NCBI GenBank assembly: GCA_016936235.1
Contig: JAFGPK010000036.1
Coordinates: 1-41,481, forward strand
Direction: 5' to 3'
Length of the DNA: 41,481 nucleotides
From: Candidatus Fermentibacteraceae bacterium
GTDB lineage: Bacteria > Fermentibacterota > Fermentibacteria > Fermentibacterales > JCC-6
The stretch's first letter is position 1. Each line of letters begins with the position of its first letter. The notes below the pieces were generated by a model. It did no database searches and was not told the DNA's origin. It was given only the letters and a program-made list of their open reading frames with translations. Below, in pieces: positions 3,013 to 38,754 of the stretch. The translations under genes and the position numbers were made by a program.

Positions 3013-3537
3013 ATGAGATACATACTGATTCTGCTGTTTCTGGCCGCAAGCGCCGCTCTGTCAGCGCCGGTGGAGCTGCTCGCGAATCCGGGATTCGAAG
3101 ACGGGGTCCTGACTCCCTGGACGACCAGCAACTGGACGGTTGTGACCACCGACCCGCATTCAGGGACATATTGCGCCTTTGATGAGGGGAACTACTGGAT
3201 AAAGCAGGAATTCACACCGTCCGACGTCAAAAACATAGTCTCGGTGACATTCTGGTATAGGCAGCCGGAGGCCGCCATCTTCGCATTTGATTTCTTGTAC
3301 GGTCCTTCGGACTATGACGAGGAGATAGTGTATGTGACCGGGCCGAACTGGACGGAGTACGACCTGACTTATTTCCTTCGATCCACCGGAAATCTCCAGG
3401 CGATCAGGTTCTATGGCTACAGCGGAGCCGGCCCCGACCCCGACTACTCATACCTCGACGATGTGTCCATCATTTATGACGAATCCGTCTCGCTCCAGCC
3501 GTCAACCTTCGGCAGCATAAAGGCGATGTTCGATTAG
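3013..3537 (+). CDS. Small secreted carbohydrate-binding-like protein with GSIK tail
   Basis: This 174-residue exported protein has a clear signal peptide (MRYILILLFLAASAALSA). It continues with LLANPGFEDGVLTPW, the usual opening of CBM-type beta-sandwich domains, and ends that domain with YLDDVSI, also typical of the fold. A ligand cannot be deduced. After the domain comes a short tail, SLQPSTFGSIKAMFD. Two other secreted proteins here (ends at 15810 and 24354) close with a matching tail although their bodies are unrelated to this one. The ribosome site AAGGAGG lies 5 bases before the ATG. The gene stands alone and converges on ppnP. Confidence 0.8.
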   Translation: MRYILILLFLAASAALSAPVELLANPGFEDGVLTPWTTSNWTVVTTDPHSGTYCAFDEGNYWIKQEFTPSDVKNIVSVTFWYRQPEAAIFAFDFLYGPSDYDEEIVYVTGPNWTEYDLTYFLRSTGNLQAIRFYGYSGAGPDPDYSYLDDVSIIYDESVSLQPSTFGSIKAMFD

Positions 3538-14970: not shown

Positions 14971-15810
14971 ATGAGAATTGCAGCCATTCTATTCATCGTC
15001 AGCGGAATCAGTCTGGCCTTCAATATCGATGAAGCGGATTATTCCATTGTGCATAATCCCTCCAGCCCTACCGATGACATCGTGCTTACTACTGTGGACA
15101 CCTGGATCCTGACCGGAGCGAAGACTCCCAGGGGCATAGACTGCTCGGATACGGCAAGTGAGCTGTTTATAACCGACTACAGTGCAGACAGAGTATTCAT
15201 CTTCGACTATTCCGGGAATTCCCTGGGCAACATCGATGTACCTGCCGGGCTTGATGATGTGGGAGGTGTCTGTTCGGGAAGCGATTACCTGTTGATAAAC
15301 GAGATGGGTTCGGATACTGATATATGGGAGTACCAGTCCGCAGGCTGGAATCCTGCGATCTCGAATCCGTCGACGGATCCCATGGGAATTGACTTGGATG
15401 CGGACGGCAACCTGTGGGAGATCGAGAGCTCCAGCAATATACTGTACCGGTTCAATTCCAGCGGTACTGTCCTGAACCAGTGGACCCTTTCGGAAGTGCC
15501 GGCCAGCGCATCCGCCATGGCCTGCACTATTTTCCCTGTCAGCGGGACCAATGTCGTGATGGTTGGCGGTCTCACATGGTCCGATTTCTACTTCTACGAA
15601 TGGGACGGCTCTTACCTCACATATCTGGGCTCACATCCTGTTCCGGTAAGCTGCAACAAGAGCTACGGCGCCGCATGGTGCCAGCAGCGCAATACTATAT
15701 TCTGGATCTACAAGACCGGCGGGGATTTCGGAGTATGCGAATTCCAGTGTTTCATCACCGGTGTGGCTCTGGAGAGGAATACCTGGGGAGGGATAAAGGC
15801 GGAGTACTAG
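14971..15810 (+). CDS. Secreted beta-propeller-like protein with GGIK tail
   Basis: This 279-residue protein is exported by an N-terminal signal (MRIAAILFIVSGISLAF). The body has short repeats of the kind seen in beta-propellers (PRGIDCSDTASELFITDY, PMGIDLDADGNLWEI). The last third is clearly paralogous to the protein ending at 24354: both have FFYEWDG or FYFYEWDG, a Cys-rich segment, and a final tail, here LERNTWGGIKAEY. That tail also recurs on an unrelated protein (end 3537). No enzyme motif is seen. AAGAAGG precedes the ATG, and a strong terminator follows the stop. Confidence 0.78.
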   Translation: MRIAAILFIVSGISLAFNIDEADYSIVHNPSSPTDDIVLTTVDTWILTGAKTPRGIDCSDTASELFITDYSADRVFIFDYSGNSLGNIDVPAGLDDVGGVCSGSDYLLINEMGSDTDIWEYQSAGWNPAISNPSTDPMGIDLDADGNLWEIESSSNILYRFNSSGTVLNQWTLSEVPASASAMACTIFPVSGTNVVMVGGLTWSDFYFYEWDGSYLTYLGSHPVPVSCNKSYGAAWCQQRNTIFWIYKTGGDFGVCEFQCFITGVALERNTWGGIKAEY

Positions 15811-19542: not shown

Positions 19543-21000
19543 ATGAAGCTAAGTTTTCTTGCTGCGACGATACTTGTCACGATGGTCCTCGCCGCCGGTA
19601 TGGACACGGGCCAGGCGGAATCCGTCGCGAGGAGCAGGATCAGCATCGACGGATATTCGAACATCCGCTTTATAGCAGGGAATATCTCACTTTCACGCGA
19701 AGACGGCGGAACCCCTCTTGCCTTCGTATTCCAGCTGGATCCCCGGGGCTACGTGATCGTATCCGGCGATAACAGGATAGCGCCCGTTATCGCCTACTCC
19801 TATTCCAACGCTTGCTGTCCCGAAGGTGAAGCAGCGGGTCCTCTCCTTGATCTTGTGAGGATCGACCTCGCATACCGCATGGACCACCTGGAGGAAGTAC
19901 CCGCCTGGTACGTAGGTGAAAACATCAGGAGATGGGCCGAGATGACCGGCGCGGCGGCCCCTGATGCTCCCATGCCGGAGCAGTGGCCACCTGCCGGATC
20001 GACGCCTACCGAGGGTTGGCTTGAGGAGAACTGGACCCAGAGCGCTCCCTACAACATGTACTGCCCCCTTGACCTGGTCACCGGCCAGAGGAGCGTCGCC
20101 GGGTGTCCGGCTGTCGCCATGGGAGCCATACTCAATTTCCATGAAGAGACGAACACTACGAGGTTCGATGACGGCGATGATTACTACCACAACTACCACG
20201 AGTACTACTGGATAGACGATGATCACGAGGCCCATGATTTCCCGTCCTGGCCGGAACTCAACATACTCCTTGATACGCTGGAGGCACACTACGCAGAGGG
20301 GTCCGTGACAGTGGAGGACCGGGCGGCGATAGTCTACGCTTCCGGAGCTGCATGCAGGCAGGTCTACACCTCCTCGGTCTCCGGGACGTTCGGTGTGGGC
20401 CAGGCATACGACGCGTACGTTAGGTTCGGTTTCGAGGACTGCCAGCTCCTGGACGACGCGGCAGACAGTCTGCTGGAAAAACTCGCGCAGAACATGATGG
20501 ACGGCATGCCCGCCCATCTGGCCATAATAGACGCGGTGCCCCAGTATGGCCACAATGTAGTGCTGGACGGCTACAACACCGATGAGTTCTTCCATATCAA
20601 TTTCGGCTGGGGCGGAGCCAGTAACGGCTGGTACAGCTTCCCCCTCTCAGGCATGCCGTACGGAATGAACTTCATCGAAGGTGTCATAATTGATATAGGT
20701 GAGCCGCTGATGTCAGCAGAGCACTCCGTCGCGGGTTACCGGGAAGACATCAGCATAATATCCGTTTCAAATCCGGTAACGAATGAGCTGTACACCACCG
20801 TATCTTCCCCGGAAGACTGCATGGCACAGCTGCGGGTGTACTCCATCGGAGGCAGGCTGGTAATGAGCACTGACGTGACCCTGGGCCGGGGCATCAGTAC
20901 ACTCTCCCTCCCCCTGGACCGGATGCCGTCAGGTGTTTACGTGATCAGGATCGGAGACACCTTCGATGAGGATTCCGCCGTCTTCACGGTATTGAGGTAG
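19543..21000 (+). CDS. Secreted C10 (streptopain-like) cysteine peptidase with sorting domain
   Basis: The protein has 485 residues. The order is signal peptide; an inhibitory-propeptide-like region (~30-125; GYVIVSGDNRIAPVIAYS); the peptidase domain; and a Por-type C-terminal domain. The catalytic Cys is Cys188 in SVAGCPAVAMGAI, the general His is His337 in GHNVVLDGY, and Trp356 in NFGWGG completes the C10 signature. Relatives are SpeB and interpain A, which degrade host or environmental proteins outside the cell. The last ~85 residues (VYSIGGRLVMS, MPSGVYVIRI) resemble the T9SS cargo domain. GAGGGAG precedes the ATG. The DUF3795-like gene begins 10 bases after the stop. Confidence 0.9.
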   Translation: MKLSFLAATILVTMVLAAGMDTGQAESVARSRISIDGYSNIRFIAGNISLSREDGGTPLAFVFQLDPRGYVIVSGDNRIAPVIAYSYSNACCPEGEAAGPLLDLVRIDLAYRMDHLEEVPAWYVGENIRRWAEMTGAAAPDAPMPEQWPPAGSTPTEGWLEENWTQSAPYNMYCPLDLVTGQRSVAGCPAVAMGAILNFHEETNTTRFDDGDDYYHNYHEYYWIDDDHEAHDFPSWPELNILLDTLEAHYAEGSVTVEDRAAIVYASGAACRQVYTSSVSGTFGVGQAYDAYVRFGFEDCQLLDDAADSLLEKLAQNMMDGMPAHLAIIDAVPQYGHNVVLDGYNTDEFFHINFGWGGASNGWYSFPLSGMPYGMNFIEGVIIDIGEPLMSAEHSVAGYREDISIISVSNPVTNELYTTVSSPEDCMAQLRVYSIGGRLVMSTDVTLGRGISTLSLPLDRMPSGVYVIRIGDTFDEDSAVFTVLR

Positions 21001-23391: not shown

Positions 23392-23481
23392 TCCGATTGC
23401 AGAACGGGTTGCACTTACGGGGCAGGACACTGACATGCATCCCGGAGTGTGTTTTTTGATTTTCAGTCCTGGAGGGATTTG

Positions 23482-24354
23482 ATGACCGCTGCAGGATACA
23501 TGGCAGCGTTCCTGTTCCTGTGCGTCACTGAGAGTGCCGCTCAGGATGAGCGTATGTCCGGTGTTGTTGACGGAACACCGGACATGTCGAGCAGCGCTGA
23601 CATTGATCTCATACTGATGCGCGACTGGGTCATCGATGAGACTGACATCGCCATGGGTCTGGATGTCTGGGCGGACGGGCCTGAGATAAGGGTGATATTC
23701 TGCGATCAGATCGCCGGCGTTCTGGGCAGCTTCGATCCCGGTACGGGAGTCGTCGTGGGAGAACTGCCGCTGTGTCCTTCCAACTCCGATTGTTTCGGGG
23801 TCACGTTCGACAGCGATCCTGCCGATCAGGTCTGGTATACCAATGACGAGAACGATGCCTGCCTGTACTACACCGAAGACCTCAGCAATTGGTACACCAT
23901 CGCCAATCCCTCTCTTCAGCACGGCAGGGGGATGGACTTCGACGGAGCCTGGTACTGGGAGACATTCGGCGATTCCGGTGTTTACCGATTCCAGCCCGGA
24001 GGCAGCCAGGAGCTGATCGACCTGCCCGGGATCCCCGATACTCTCAGCGGTCTGACCGTGTTCCCGCTGGGAAGCAACCTCGGTATTGCGGCGACGTGCT
24101 TCGAATCGGAGAACCTCTTCTTCTACGAATGGGACGGTGTGACTGCAACCTGCCTGGGAGCAGCAGCCTGCCCATCCGCAGTCAAGGACTCCTGCAACTA
24201 CGGGCTTGCATACTGCGAACAGAATGAAATGCTTTACTGGAGTTACATCAGCGCTTCGGACGAGGTGAAGATCGCCGAGATATCCTTCGAGATCAACACC
24301 GTCCTGGAGCAGTCCAGCTGGGGGGGAATCAAATCGGTATTCGGCGACCTGTAG
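23482..24354 (+). CDS. Secreted beta-propeller-like protein with GGIK tail (paralogue)
   Basis: This 290-residue exported protein has a signal peptide (AAFLFLCVTESAAQ). Repeats such as CFGVTFDSDPADQVWYTND and GRGMDFDGAWYWETFG suggest a propeller of about six blades. The C-terminal third aligns with the protein ending at 15810: FFYEWDG, a CNYGLAYCEQNEMLYW segment against SYGAAWCQQRNTIFWIY, and the tail LEQSSWGGIKSVFGDL. No catalytic motif is visible. ATG 23482 has GGAGG 6 bases upstream; an in-frame GTG at 23449 precedes the signal peptide and is rejected. Confidence 0.78.
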   Translation: MTAAGYMAAFLFLCVTESAAQDERMSGVVDGTPDMSSSADIDLILMRDWVIDETDIAMGLDVWADGPEIRVIFCDQIAGVLGSFDPGTGVVVGELPLCPSNSDCFGVTFDSDPADQVWYTNDENDACLYYTEDLSNWYTIANPSLQHGRGMDFDGAWYWETFGDSGVYRFQPGGSQELIDLPGIPDTLSGLTVFPLGSNLGIAATCFESENLFFYEWDGVTATCLGAAACPSAVKDSCNYGLAYCEQNEMLYWSYISASDEVKIAEISFEINTVLEQSSWGGIKSVFGDL

Positions 24355-26837: not shown

Positions 26838-26868
26838 TTATGGGATTGGATCGAACCGGGAAGGAGAT

Positions 26869-29800
26869 ATGAGAGTGCCCAGAGTCCTCCTCGCTCTGTT
26901 CCTGACAGCCTGCTGCCTCTCCGCAGGGAACATGTGGGAGAACCATGGTGTAAACTTCAGTTACGTTCGCACCGGGACCGGTGAGAGCGTAACCATGTTC
27001 CCTGTGGTCTGGGACATCAGGGGCGCAGGCATTCAGTACTGGTATTACTGCGCCGTGTTCTGCATCGATCCGTCAACGGATCCCATATTGGATCTCCTGG
27101 CGGAGTCGCAGAGATTCGGTGTCAATACCGCCATGGTGAGGACAGAGCTGCAGCAGGAAGAAGTACCCGGTTCGTTCATTTCCACTGACTACGAGTTTGA
27201 AGAGCTGGCGAACTCCGTCCGTTCCACCGGCATGAACGTAATCGTAGGGGGTTTCTGGACCGATCCGTATGCCCAGGAACACAATGACGCCACCCTGGAT
27301 TACCTGGCCGATTACGTAGGTCTTACTGCCGGGCAGTTCCCGGGAGAGGTGGTGGGCGTATTCGGATTCGATGAACCGGCCGTCAAATTCCTCGAGAATC
27401 CCGAGACCTCGTGGGACTATATAGAAATGGTCGCCTGCTACCGTAACCTGTGTGAGTCCGAGATAGGCCTCCCGATGCTCTCCTTCATTTCCAAGTACGG
27501 CACCCTTGATCCCAGCGGCATGATGCAGTACTACTGCGATACCACGAGTGTCCTGAACCGGTTCGCAAGGCACCTGGACATAATCGCCCTGAACATGTAC
27601 CCCATCAAGAACAATGACAGGAGACTCGCCTATATTCTCCTCGAGACTCAGAACGTGCTGTTTTGCGGCGCCACAGATCTGCTTCCCTCTTCCTCTCCGT
27701 ACTACGAGGTATACTGCGACAGAGACGAGTTCTTCACTGTGACGGAAGAAGGGGGCAGCTGCAGGTTCACGGCCTACGAGTTCCTCTGCACTCCAGATTT
27801 TGACGATATCTTCCTGGAGGAGGCACTCTCGATGGAACTTCCATTCAGGCCGACGGGGATGGCCTGCAGCGATTACCGGGCCAGGGACATCGGGGACCGG
27901 AGGTATCAGGAGCACAGGCTCAACGGTGCGGTGATCCTCTGGGACAGTACCGCATCTGCGGGCGGGGAGCTTGTGATCATCAACGACGGAGACGGGATTG
28001 TCACGACGGACTTGCCCGATTTCCCGGGCTCGGAAAGAGCCGTGCCCCTTGCATTCTGTGTGGGGGAGGGGGGGCATAATGGAACGGATCACCCTTCCGA
28101 CGGCATCCTCGGGAAATGGGACACCGCCATCATGGGATGCTATCTGATCGGCGGAACTGAAACCAGGCTCGTGGTTTTCGAAAAGGAGGGAGCGGACGGG
28201 TTCTCCCTGGAGACCGGGGACCCGATTGCCATAAGGGGACTTGAAGTAGACGGTACCCTCTGGGGAAGATTCTGGGGAGATGGTCTGCCCGAGCCGCCGA
28301 TGATCCAGCCCGAGAACGGCGGGTTTCTCATCTACGATGATCGAGGTCTCTACGTATACGTGATCCCGAGGTTCGGACGATGGAACCTGTATCCCGCTAT
28401 GGAACCCTGTTTCATGAACCTGTTCGGTCCTTTCGCGGATCCCGCATCGGTCTTCGTCACCCATGAGAGCGGTGTCGAACCCCCTTATACTCCCGGCAAC
28501 GATTACGTTACAGCATTCTTCGATGGGTCTACCCCTGTCCTGACCCGGACCAGGAGCAACGGGATCTACACCATGCTTGATTCTATAAACACATGCCGCC
28601 TGGAGGGCACGATTGGAGATGTCCGTGCGGTCTCCGCATACCGGCCCGATAAGAACTACGGTGATGTACTGCTTACTCTGGACGAAGACGGCAGCCTCAG
28701 AAGATCCTCCGGCACCATCACCGGGGGTGAGACCGGCGGGACCATCCAGATGCAGCTGTTGAACTCGGTCCCCGGAAACACCGTACTCTCCGGAGCAAGG
28801 GTAATGCACACACGCAAGGCCATACGGACCGGTCTCGCGCTGTCTGACCACTCCCTGATCCTGCCCGCGGCGGAGCTGTTCTGGAGCGACTGGGACGACC
28901 GGCGTCTGAACTGGTTCTCCGAATGCTACGAAGTAGCCATGGAAAACGCCGTCTTCTCCACCGAGCGGGACAATTGCGCCTTCGCCAATGTACAGTCCTA
29001 CGGTCGCCATGCCTTCGGTCTGCCGAGTTACTGCGCTTCGCGGGATACACTGCTCTTCATGGCGACGGTCCCCATCATCAAAGGCTGCAGGGGCCTGGTG
29101 TTCTACGCCATGGACATCGCTCTCATGAGCGGCAACCGGACCGCTGATCAGACCTTGAGATATCCCGATCTCCTGCAGAACTGGGGTCCGAGCAGGGACG
29201 TCGGTAACACCGACATACCTGGCCGGGTGCATCAGGTGGTTGCATCACTGACCGGGAACGGACCCCAGGGGGGACCGGACTTCCTGGCTGCCCTGGTGGA
29301 TCCCGCCTACAGGGTACTTCAGACCTCGGAAGCGATGAACTGCAGCATCAGCAGCGTCATGGGATCAGTTCCTGATCCGGCCGACACCACGCTGAACTTC
29401 ATCGCCGTTGAGAATACGGAAGACGGTTCGATACTGATGCTTGTATCCAACGAGTCCGGAGCGCAGCTCGCACCCGGCAGAGGCATCTGCTTCCCCGGGA
29501 GGTTCAACGGCAACTACTCCCTGAACGTAGTTGACGGCTTCGCTCCGGCAAGGTCATTCTCGCAGCCGGTCATTTTCGGGGACGAACCGGGAACCGTGGG
29601 CCCAGGGACCCTGATCCTCGACTTTTCGGGAATGCCCTCCACAACGGTTTCACTGCTGGAGCTCGGTTCCGACGGGCTCTATCCCGGCAGCGATGCGTTC
29701 CTTGAGGTCTTCAACTGCATGGGATCTTCATGGATCAGGTTCCGAGCCGTTCCGGGAGCCATGGGCGAACTGTCCCTTTACGATCTCGCCGGCAGGAAGA

Positions 29801-29943
29801 TGAGCACGTTGTGGACCGGAGAGGGCGGCACCGAAGTGCTGGAGATGACAATCGTAAGGAACGGTCTACCATCCGGATTGTACTTCGTAACGCTAAATTC
29901 AGGCGGGTACTTCATCCCGCAGAAGATAATCCTGCTCAGGTAA
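26869..29943 (+). CDS. Large secreted protein with glycosidase-like barrel and sorting domain
   Basis: The product has 1024 residues and starts with a signal peptide (VPRVLLALFLTACCLSAG). Residues ~60-270 look like part of a TIM barrel of the clan GH-A kind: EVVGVFGFDEPAVKFL, then HLDIIALNMYP at strand ends. A later part (~735-770) has MATVPIIKGCRGLVFYAMD, similar to strand segments of beta-galactosidase-like proteins. A beta-rich insert lies between. The last ~75 residues are a Por-like sorting domain (LSLYDLAGRKMSTLW, LPSGLYFVTLN). A glycoside hydrolase or an inactive relative is my best guess; the catalytic pair is not established. ATG 26869 follows AAGGAG by 2 bases; the frame is open back to 26704 without support. 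Confidence 0.75.
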   Translation: MRVPRVLLALFLTACCLSAGNMWENHGVNFSYVRTGTGESVTMFPVVWDIRGAGIQYWYYCAVFCIDPSTDPILDLLAESQRFGVNTAMVRTELQQEEVPGSFISTDYEFEELANSVRSTGMNVIVGGFWTDPYAQEHNDATLDYLADYVGLTAGQFPGEVVGVFGFDEPAVKFLENPETSWDYIEMVACYRNLCESEIGLPMLSFISKYGTLDPSGMMQYYCDTTSVLNRFARHLDIIALNMYPIKNNDRRLAYILLETQNVLFCGATDLLPSSSPYYEVYCDRDEFFTVTEEGGSCRFTAYEFLCTPDFDDIFLEEALSMELPFRPTGMACSDYRARDIGDRRYQEHRLNGAVILWDSTASAGGELVIINDGDGIVTTDLPDFPGSERAVPLAFCVGEGGHNGTDHPSDGILGKWDTAIMGCYLIGGTETRLVVFEKEGADGFSLETGDPIAIRGLEVDGTLWGRFWGDGLPEPPMIQPENGGFLIYDDRGLYVYVIPRFGRWNLYPAMEPCFMNLFGPFADPASVFVTHESGVEPPYTPGNDYVTAFFDGSTPVLTRTRSNGIYTMLDSINTCRLEGTIGDVRAVSAYRPDKNYGDVLLTLDEDGSLRRSSGTITGGETGGTIQMQLLNSVPGNTVLSGARVMHTRKAIRTGLALSDHSLILPAAELFWSDWDDRRLNWFSECYEVAMENAVFSTERDNCAFANVQSYGRHAFGLPSYCASRDTLLFMATVPIIKGCRGLVFYAMDIALMSGNRTADQTLRYPDLLQNWGPSRDVGNTDIPGRVHQVVASLTGNGPQGGPDFLAALVDPAYRVLQTSEAMNCSISSVMGSVPDPADTTLNFIAVENTEDGSILMLVSNESGAQLAPGRGICFPGRFNGNYSLNVVDGFAPARSFSQPVIFGDEPGTVGPGTLILDFSGMPSTTVSLLELGSDGLYPGSDAFLEVFNCMGSSWIRFRAVPGAMGELSLYDLAGRKMSTLWTGEGGTEVLEMTIVRNGLPSGLYFVTLNSGGYFIPQKIILLR

Positions 29944-35891: not shown

Positions 35892-37142
35892 ATGGAAAGG
35901 ATATTCTTCTTATTGTCTACGGTGGTGGCTGTCGCTTCGGCAGCAGGTTCCTGGACTGACACAACGTTCGTTGCTCCTTCGCTGGGATTCCATAACACAG
36001 TGGCCGTATTCCTGCCGGAGGGGTACGAACCCGGCGGCACACTAGACTACCAGCTTCTCATTTGGCTTCACGGCTGGGGAAGCCACTACTGGAACGATAC
36101 GACAGCATTGCGGGTTGCGCACGACAACCTGGTGGCATCTGGAGATATTGCTCCCTGTATCATGGTCAGCCCTGAGGGCTGGTGCCTTCCCTACGAGGGC
36201 TGCATGTGGGCAAACTCCGAGCTCTACGGCAACTATGAAGGATACGTGGTTGACGACATAATCACTTTCATGGACACCACCTACTGTACGGTGGGTGACC
36301 AGGCAAGGTACATAATGGGATCCTCCATGGGCGGGTCCGGTGCACTGGACATCGCTCTCAGGCACCAGGAGCTGTTCAAATGCGTCTGCACCACCGCTGC
36401 GGTCCCGGACATGGTCGTATGCATGCCTTACGTCATCGCCGAGGTTTTGATAGAGTGCCCCGAGACGGAACCTCCGTACACCTTCGACTGGGGCAACGGA
36501 TTCTACACCGATGCAGAGTTCATGTACGCAGGCGGCTATTCCCCGAACCTCGCGGCACCCGACTCCGTCGATTTCCCCATCGACGAGAACGGTCTGCTGA
36601 TCGACTCCGTCTACACCGAGTGGGAGCTGTACAACGCAGCCCATATGGTCAGGCTGAACCCTCCATCCGATCTCATGATAGGTCTGACATGGGGACTGAG
36701 CGATCCACAGGCCGGTCTGGTGGAGTGCAACTACGCCTTTGCAGACACCCTTTCGGAGCTGGGTCTTCCCCACACGGTCTATACGGACAACAGCGGTCAT
36801 GGATACAACATAATGAGGCTATCCCAGATGATGCTGATAGCCATGGGATGGAGCGGCATCAATGAGGATCCCGCCTCCGCATCGGCGCGATTGTCGGTCA
36901 AGCCGAACCCCACTACCGGACCCGCTGCCATCGGTTTCCGTCTGGAAGCCCGATCCCGCGTGCTTCTTGAAGTGTATGATGTCTCCGGAAGGTTGGTTGG
37001 CACGGTCCTGGACGCAACGGTCGAAGCTGGCGATCATGCAGTTGATTTCGACGGGACCGGTCTTGGATCCGGCGTCTACTTACTGAGAATGTCCGAAGGA
37101 GGCCGCATAAGTACATCAAGCCTGGTTCTGATGGATCGGTAG
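35892..37142 (+). CDS. Secreted esterase D-family protein with T9SS-like sorting domain
   Basis: The protein has 416 residues. A signal peptide (IFFLLSTVVAVASAAG) is followed by an esterase domain of PF00756. It has LLIWLHGWGSHYWND at the oxyanion loop, the nucleophile Ser145 in IMGSSMGGSGALD and the His in NSGHGYNI. Relatives cleave feruloyl, acetyl or S-formylglutathione esters; a secreted copy suggests polysaccharide ester removal. The last ~80 residues are a clear Por/T9SS-type domain: LSVKPNPTTGPAAIGF, LEVYDVSGRLVGTV, GLGSGVYLLRM. GGGGAG precedes the ATG. Single gene. Confidence 0.88.
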   Translation: MERIFFLLSTVVAVASAAGSWTDTTFVAPSLGFHNTVAVFLPEGYEPGGTLDYQLLIWLHGWGSHYWNDTTALRVAHDNLVASGDIAPCIMVSPEGWCLPYEGCMWANSELYGNYEGYVVDDIITFMDTTYCTVGDQARYIMGSSMGGSGALDIALRHQELFKCVCTTAAVPDMVVCMPYVIAEVLIECPETEPPYTFDWGNGFYTDAEFMYAGGYSPNLAAPDSVDFPIDENGLLIDSVYTEWELYNAAHMVRLNPPSDLMIGLTWGLSDPQAGLVECNYAFADTLSELGLPHTVYTDNSGHGYNIMRLSQMMLIAMGWSGINEDPASASARLSVKPNPTTGPAAIGFRLEARSRVLLEVYDVSGRLVGTVLDATVEAGDHAVDFDGTGLGSGVYLLRMSEGGRISTSSLVLMDR

Positions 37143-38175: not shown

Positions 38176-38754
38176 ATGATGTTACTTGCAGTCCTTATAC
38201 TTACTGCGCTGCCCGGCGATCTTGTGATCAGCGAGATCATGTACAATCCAGATGGAACCACAATGGGTCCGGACGAACTGCTGGAATGGGTCGAGCTCTA
38301 CAACGCCGGGGATGAGACCGTTGACCTGGACGGTATGATTCTGTCCGACAGCAGCAATCAGCTTGTTCTTGACGACTACCTTATCCAGCCGGGGGAATAT
38401 GTCGTCGTAGCGGCCAGCTCGGGCGCCTTCATGGACCTCTACGGCCCGGATATCCCCATTGTGGAATGGAATGGAGACTGGACCAAGCTCAGGAACAGCG
38501 GCGATCAGATCTCGCTCTCTACATCGGACGGGACCATTATTGAATCGGTGATCTTTTCGGATGGCTGGGGTAGGGACAACGGGTCAGGAAGCCCGGCGGA
38601 CGGTGACGGTTCGACACTTGAGAGGATCGACCTTCTCGGCGGGACAGAGGAATCCAACTGGGCCCCGTCCGAAGACTGGGACCACAGGATCGTAACGGCA
38701 GGGAATCCGCTCTGCTGGGGTACACCGGGAGCGAGGAACAGCCGCTGGCGATGA
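38176..38754 (+). CDS. Secreted lamin-tail-domain protein
   Basis: This 192-residue exported protein begins with a short signal (MMLLAVLILTALPG). It goes straight into a lamin-tail (LTD, PF00932) beta-sandwich: LVISEIMYNPDG, LLEWVELYNAGDETVDLDG, then IQPGEYVVVA and NSGDQISLSTSDG. The closing WGTPGARN is also typical. In bacteria LTD domains are secreted adhesion or scaffold modules, often on nucleases; here no second domain is present. GGAGG precedes two tandem ATG codons (38176, 38179). Confidence 0.88.
   Translation: MMLLAVLILTALPGDLVISEIMYNPDGTTMGPDELLEWVELYNAGDETVDLDGMILSDSSNQLVLDDYLIQPGEYVVVAASSGAFMDLYGPDIPIVEWNGDWTKLRNSGDQISLSTSDGTIIESVIFSDGWGRDNGSGSPADGDGSTLERIDLLGGTEESNWAPSEDWDHRIVTAGNPLCWGTPGARNSRWR

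Follow-up and report, generated by a model that had tools for sequence, protein, structure and literature searches.

The window analysed here, a contig of 41,481 nucleotides from a Candidatus Fermentibacteraceae bacterium, encodes three secreted proteins, all on the plus strand, that close with a similar short tail. The first (3013–3537) consists of a signal peptide and a CBM_4_9/NTTRR-F1-like body, whose matches fall below the curated cut-offs, and its tag at 3478–3537 ends SVSLQPSTFGSIKAMFD and then the stop codon (profile E 2.9e-9); a relative of this protein, also tagged, lies at locus L063. The second (14971–15810) is propeller-like, with its tag, GVALERNTWGGIKAEY and then the stop, at 15760–15810 (profile E 1.7e-8), and the third (23449–24354), whose tag at 24298–24354 reads TVLEQSSWGGIKSVFGDL followed by the stop (profile E 1.9e-8), is a paralogue of the second by sequence comparison and family membership. 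These two proteins are 24% identical and fall in one propeller-like family with 21 members among the fetched loci, all of which carry the W form of the tail. The first-pass annotation of this DNA had pointed to the ends STFGSIKAMFD (ORF end 3537), NTWGGIKAEY (15810) and SSWGGIKSVFGDL (24354) as a tail shared by three proteins with signal peptides, the last two paralogous and the first with an unrelated body. We find the tails at these places and signal-peptide-like N-terminal stretches on all three proteins (read by eye), and both the paralogy and the unrelated first body stand; the spacer proposed to precede the tail, V-x-L-x-x, has to be amended, since (A/S)-L-(E/Q)-x-x fits better. The AlphaFold2 (AF2) model of the second protein has an all-beta, propeller-like body at residues 37–262 and shows the tail as a low-confidence appendage, with a helix drawn at residues 269–278. 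A search for signs of viral origin returned no PHROGs match (E ≤ 0.01) for any of the three.

The window has four further secreted proteins that had been described as bearing T9SS-like domains, and we recover Por_Secre_tail/FlgD_ig matches on all four, three of them over a cut-off and one below it (ORF 26866–29943, at 21.6 bits against a cut-off of 23). For comparison with the tagged proteins, a C10 peptidase (19543–21000, plus strand) and an esterase (35892–37142, plus strand) each carry a T9SS type A C-terminal domain (CTD), matching TIGR04183 at 26.2 and 26.5 bits, respectively (cut-off 23). We note that the window also contains a lamin-tail-domain protein (38176–38754) whose end has neither the tag nor a T9SS domain; some of its lamin-tail relatives elsewhere are tagged.

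A strictly C-terminal tail on unrelated bodies

The consensus of the tag is [AS]-L-[EQ]-x-x-[TS]-[WF]-G-x-I-K-[AS]-x-F, followed by zero to three residues. Within the genome from which the window comes (2.68 Mb in 117 contigs), 19 sites match a degenerate pattern for [WF..]GxIK[AST] at the DNA level, as against one for the reversed pattern, and 17 of the 19 lie 8–11 residues from a stop, the remaining two (L012, L015) being internal in ordinary proteins. A profile built from the 17 near-stop tails (A1) returned 22 matches in the genome at E ≤ 10, comprising the same 17 and five new ones, every one of them C-terminal, and a further variant tail, NSWAFIKAFVQ, closes a gene neighbouring one of the profile matches. 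Tagged proteins thus number at least 22 in this genome, with bodies that are largely unrelated. At loci L020–L094, all 73 distinct ORFs containing the motif as a regular expression stop 2–5 residues past IKA, and a position-blind, six-frame matrix scan of loci centred on profile matches placed 125 of 128 matches of at least 14 bits within 6 residues of a stop. Of the other three, two are 8 and 11 residues short of a stop and one is an antisense coincidence; among the four matches of 10–14 bits, three are internal. In every one of the 119 tag ORFs, the W or F of the motif stands 8–11 residues before the stop, a distance that the search expression itself bounds. The motif is therefore seldom internal, judging by the strong matrix matches and by the 17 of 19 pattern matches near a stop, which agrees with the strictly terminal motif first described, and a chance origin of the tail is ruled out by the reversed-pattern control together with the terminal positions. 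The original observation of a shared tail is correct, and it is larger than first noted.

When the ends are removed, clustering by single linkage at E < 1e-4 sorts 115 tag proteins into 41 body families, 21 of them singletons, where remote kinship between some of the families remains possible. In the genome of the window alone, 22 tag ORFs (21 of the 22 profile matches, one cut by a contig end being excluded, plus the NSWAFIKAFVQ variant) represent 13 body families. The tail is therefore not part of one homologous domain, and a single shared domain is excluded as its source. Using a simple rule of our own, we found a signal peptide in 93 of 105 tag ORFs compared with 36 of 119 control ORFs (at least 200 aa, from the same loci), so that the occurrence of a common tail on exported proteins with unrelated bodies, inferred in the first-pass annotation from three proteins, holds for a far larger set. 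Pfam models matched by the 105 proteins at E ≤ 0.01 describe domains typical of extracellular proteins and include CBM96 (11 proteins), LTD (3), MAM-like (3), CBM_4_9 (3) and PPC (2) as well as propeller models, and NCBIfam assigned 11 to DNRLRE and one to choice-of-anchor J. The aromatic residue of the tail goes with the body, being F in 10 of 11 members of the CBM96-type family and W in 21 of 21 members of the propeller family. In the window's genome, contig C23 carries three F-type tag ORFs of a CBM96/DNRLRE-like family in tandem (L020, 8108–10398), one of them truncated by the contig end.

Distribution of the tail and its co-occurrence with SprA

All 42 sampled genomes of the window's phylum, apparently Fermentibacterota (Candidatus Aegiribacteria/Hyd24-12), which span three families and nine genera, contain the tag at E ≤ 0.001, with 1 to 33 copies each and 646 matches together, and the motif is thus a regular feature of related genomes. 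Outside the phylum, a second profile (A2) matched 13 of 343 genomes at E ≤ 5e-4. Nine of these have 22–53 matches each at the loose limit of E ≤ 0.5, with tails such as VEETSWGSIKAMFR (judged from 30 fetched loci in all), and each of the other four (G030, G036, G196, G234) has one small secreted Fn3-like protein ending TWGSIKAMFR. A general profile (A3) built from 50 tails, to which the 13 outside genomes supplied rows, was run on the same 385 genomes (the 42 of the phylum and the 343 others) at E ≤ 0.01 and scored 42 of 42 and 44 of 343 genomes, respectively, as tag-positive. Of the 44, 16 have at least 10 copies and 28 have one or two, copy numbers being taken among no more than 23 scored candidates per genome. 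Genomes with at least 10 tag proteins are found in the window's phylum and in nine other sampled families. Tails were read in five of the 28 low-copy genomes (G030, G036, G196, G234 and G122), and there the low-copy tag sits on a small secreted Fn3 protein with a TWGSIKA(M/L)FR end; the records concerned bear the labels Ignavibacteria, KSB1, Calditrichota, Neomarinimicrobiota and Delongbacteria. Among the matches listed from the open-access literature, we found no description of such a tag; the string TWGSIKAMFR is absent from the open-access papers searched, and shorter strings appear, from the listing, only in papers on other subjects.

We refer to the small secreted Fn3 protein that ends TWGSIKA(M/L)FR as SFT. 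The pattern TWG[S]IKAMFR-stop occurs at no fewer than 120 loci (L125–L244) in named genomes, and the 80 names listed comprise Ignavibacteria and their kin, Bacteroidetes, Chlorobiota and Chlorobiaceae bins, KSB1, Calditrichota, Neomarinimicrobiota, Delongbacteria and a handful of other or unplaced labels. An ORF of one single-linkage cluster is present at 113 of the 120 loci. An alignment of 89 of its 105 complete members, from which near-duplicates and one long ORF were excluded, gives a median pairwise identity of 28% for the body; in the tail, Ser fills the sole partly open position of the search pattern in 88 of the 89 members, the invariance of the remainder being largely by construction since the pattern required it. 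The SFT protein of G122, which was found without that pattern, has the same tail except for one M-to-L change (TWGSIKALFR). Four of the 119 tag ORFs are SFT proteins. Three SFT members tested gave no significant Pfam or NCBIfam family, and an SFT sequence profile searched against the PDB gave no significant match (best E 0.015). The AF2 model of SFT is an Ig/Fn3-type sandwich at residues 22–114 with pLDDT mostly above 90, and a fold search of it against the PDB returned Fn3/Ig-like matches (best E 1.2e-4); the tail is a low-confidence appendage, mostly coil, with pLDDT blocks of 58–63.

The genes most often found near SFT are of the SpoIID- and Maf-like kinds rather than those of T9SS. A SpoIID-type cluster is represented near 51 of the 120 SFT loci (one member, at L136, was confirmed as SpoIID), a Maf-like cluster at 65 and a flippase-like cluster at 36, the latter two named by eye. 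One SFT gene, in a KSB1 record (L104), adjoins porD, as judged by a DUF4835 match over its cut-off and an NCBIfam PorD match below its own. We found no linked partner gene common to all 120 SFT loci, nor one common to tag genes across phyla.

The first-pass annotation had suggested looking for a co-occurring transpeptidase or export gene, and an export gene does co-occur, namely that for SprA, the T9SS translocon; short of a genome-wide search, no transpeptidase was identified. SprA_N (PF14349) matched 125 of the 385 genomes at E ≤ 1e-5 (123 over the cut-off) and none of 14 control genomes. Outside the phylum, SprA is present in 44 of 44 tag genomes, while 43 genomes have SprA without the tag and 256 lack both (Fisher p=1.7e-31, with no correction for shared ancestry). 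Thirty-one of the 44 were new beyond the 13 found with A2, and all 31 have SprA; the 44 represent 27 families, so that their independence is limited. Within the phylum, SprA is found in 41 of 42 genomes (38 by Pfam and three more by direct search), that of G001 scoring over the TIGR04189 cut-off, and matches to T9SS C-terminal domains occur in 42 of 42 genomes, at 30–105 each, indicating that the usual T9SS cargo is present beside the tag. Tag-free SprA genomes are common (43 of the 87 SprA genomes outside the phylum). The association of tag and T9SS is confounded by descent, and both may mark one superphylum.

The one phylum genome in which we detected no SprA match is G005, a member of the window's genus (98% complete, 1.9 Mb). 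It has two tag proteins, both at one locus, against 12–23 in the other members of its genus at the same setting, and it retains 33 T9SS-domain matches, a number inside the range for the phylum. Orthologues of LptF and PilB, which neighbour SprA in its kin, were not found in G005 either, and because these are also missing we cannot distinguish a gap in the assembly from a wider loss of envelope functions. The low tag count would not be accounted for by such a gap alone. We rejected the use of G005 as a clean natural knock-out, since its CTD matches are kept and the genes flanking SprA are missing too. In the relatives of the window's genome represented by L282, L283 and L302, SprA lies in a pilus/LPS cluster, between genes for pilus-type ATPases and the LPS-export permease gene lptF.

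Comparison with known C-terminal signals

By the models tested, the tail does not belong to the T9SS C-terminal domains of type A. TIGR04183 matched none of 105 tag proteins at E ≤ 0.001 (with all 13 NCBIfam families that did match taken into account), and PF18962 gave no match below E 0.009 among the best 25 Pfam families. Models of type B are absent from the 13 NCBIfam families matched at E ≤ 0.001, and the tail is far shorter than type B or C domains. That the tag and the type A CTD were not found together suggests that the two signals are alternatives. Seven relatives of tag-protein bodies that have other ends were examined for an exchange of tails. Three Fn3-type proteins (L147, L169, L176) have a C-terminal TIGR04183 domain over the cut-off, where only the Fn3-type regions are shared with tag proteins; the ends of two lamin-tail proteins (L212, L230) match FlgD_ig or CHU_C, a T9SS signal, below the cut-off; and the ends of another lamin-tail protein (L161) and of a beta-helix protein (L055) match no T9SS-signal model. 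These comparisons are suggestive, and no more than weak evidence, of an interchange of tag and CTD on related bodies, and as an exchange was seen in three of seven relatives, our confidence in the best explanation was lowered slightly.

LPXTG/sortase, GlyGly-CTERM/rhombosortase and MYXO-CTERM are systems in which C-terminal tags are found on bodies of the same kinds as those of the tag proteins. Unlike those tags, the present one has no transmembrane segment and, by eye, no matching tail motif. Among the M36 models, the rhombosortase-dependent one matched two and the myxosortase-dependent one matched one of 105 tag proteins; like the matches to DNRLRE and choice-of-anchor J, which also point to bodies of these kinds, they were not graded against cut-offs. 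Because its W or F stands 8–11 residues from the end, the tail is too short for a membrane-spanning helix. It lies outside the well-predicted body in both AF2 models (SFT and the second window protein), one of which draws a low-confidence helix and the other mostly coil, and hydrophobic moments left helix versus strand undecided. As judged from the distance of its motif to the stop, the tail is not one of the transmembrane-type sorting tags (PEP-CTERM, LPXTG, GlyGly-CTERM). The beta-signal of outer-membrane proteins was tentatively set aside on account of the invariant lysine. The tag resembles PEP-CTERM/exosortase in being a short C-terminal homology on diverse exported proteins, present in many copies per genome and found through its distribution relative to that of candidate machinery, and it differs from PEP-CTERM, with its PEP motif, transmembrane helix and basic cluster, in being too short to contain such a helix (PMC1569441).

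The tag is like the T9SS CTDs in that it is C-terminal on Sec-exported proteins, occurs many times per genome on unrelated bodies and is found with SprA. It is unlike them in having about 10 conserved residues, as against the folded domains of 67–108 residues reported for P. gingivalis (PMC11285876). Three types of T9SS signal, A, B and C, are described, all of them folded domains (PMC10202324), and their readers are SprA together with shuttle barrels, PorV for type A and PorP/SprF-like proteins for type B (PMC12618676; PMC10994853). The T9SS signal of HBP35 has been mapped to its last 22 residues, RgpB is blocked by the loss of two C-terminal residues, and type A CTDs need their last strand, which bears a conserved lysine (PMC11285876).

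A possible T9SS-linked sorting signal

We favour, with moderate confidence, the explanation that the tail works as a short sorting signal, strictly C-terminal and linked to T9SS, where the dependence on T9SS is inferred. The near-invariant lysine with its flanking hydrophobic residues, the confinement of the tag, outside the phylum, to genomes with SprA and the lack of a CTD alongside it fit a minimal T9SS-linked signal. In such a scheme, tag proteins would be exported by Sec by means of a cleavable signal peptide and would present a flexible tail, [TS][WF]GxIKAx[FY], in the periplasm. The tail would be read by the T9SS outer-membrane apparatus, that is SprA with a PorV-family shuttle, or by a T9SS-dependent receptor, and the reader would carry the protein across the outer membrane or place it on that membrane; the tag would do for these proteins what the folded T9SS C-terminal domain does for others of the same cell. 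On the fuller proposition, that this is an undescribed T9SS export or targeting signal in the form of a linear stretch of some 10 residues, common to Ignavibacteria, Calditrichota, KSB1, Neomarinimicrobiota, Delongbacteria and the window's phylum, with one or two clients, typically SFT, in many genomes and dozens in others, our judgement is evenly divided. The first-pass reading of the tail as a sorting or anchoring tag is supported, none of its three refuting conditions having been borne out; the role itself remains an inference, as it was there, there being no export, binding or cleavage data, and T9SS as the reader, like any dependence of export on it, is also inferred.

The main rival, which we think unlikely, holds that the tail is a surface or outer-membrane retention tag, a docking peptide that is perhaps an amphipathic helix and whose receptor or transpeptidase happens to occur solely in the same superphylum, without involvement of T9SS. 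A short, aromatic, cationic tail that is predicted to be an appendage would suit this role, 51 of the 120 SFT loci hold an ORF from the cluster in which the one member tested is SpoIID, and G005 keeps its two tag proteins and 33 CTD matches in the absence of a detectable SprA. Retention alone, however, leaves the presence of SprA in all 44 outside tag genomes unexplained, and no candidate receptor was found. It is more doubtful still that the tail marks parts of the T9SS itself, with SFT as a docking component and the multi-copy proteins as accessory subunits that share its dock: SFT is small, was the sole tag match in the four genomes where it was first seen and in one case is encoded next to porD, but the diverse carbohydrate-binding, propeller and lamin-tail bodies, at least 10 per genome, resemble cargo. 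We regard as scarcely credible, and as largely refuted by these results, the idea that the tail is the ordinary end of a common extracellular domain, or a chance convergence, with no sorting role, since this could fit the three window proteins taken alone but not a tail that is found on 41 body families with 125 of 128 strong matches terminal, that is kept on Fn3 bodies of 28% median identity (Ser at the partly open position in 88 of 89) and that AF2 puts outside the well-predicted body in both models.

If the tail is indeed a T9SS-linked sorting signal, then T9SS reads a short peptide and not solely a folded domain, and a system thought to require a folded domain would gain a signal for export or anchoring that is minimal and easy to search for. 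The tag would predict a destination for at least 10 uncharacterised proteins per genome, it defines SFT as a small conserved protein family, and a peptide of about 10 residues could possibly be used as a fusion tag or as a probe of cargo recognition by T9SS shuttles.

One type of tag protein has a further feature. The gene at L033 (1495–2007, minus strand, on contig C35 of the window's genome) and its relatives at L051, L069 and L085 contain a conserved in-frame TGA (2005–2007 in L033), located just past the signal peptide in a CxxU setting (PFCAS-TGA-GS, PFCGN-TGA-TY). A hairpin of seven pairs, CGCUAUC-AGGU-GAUAGCG, begins 13 bases past the TGA and was folded in L033, L051 and L069; L085 also allows this hairpin to be drawn, given a single change of U-A to C-G, though its computed fold is shifted. 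None of the four folds was clearly more stable than shuffled sequences (z 0.26 to −1.51), and a search of Rfam gave no SECIS match. The AGGU loop of the hairpin is as in bacterial SECIS elements, and the L033-type tag protein is, on the strength of its gene sequence, a candidate exported selenoprotein.
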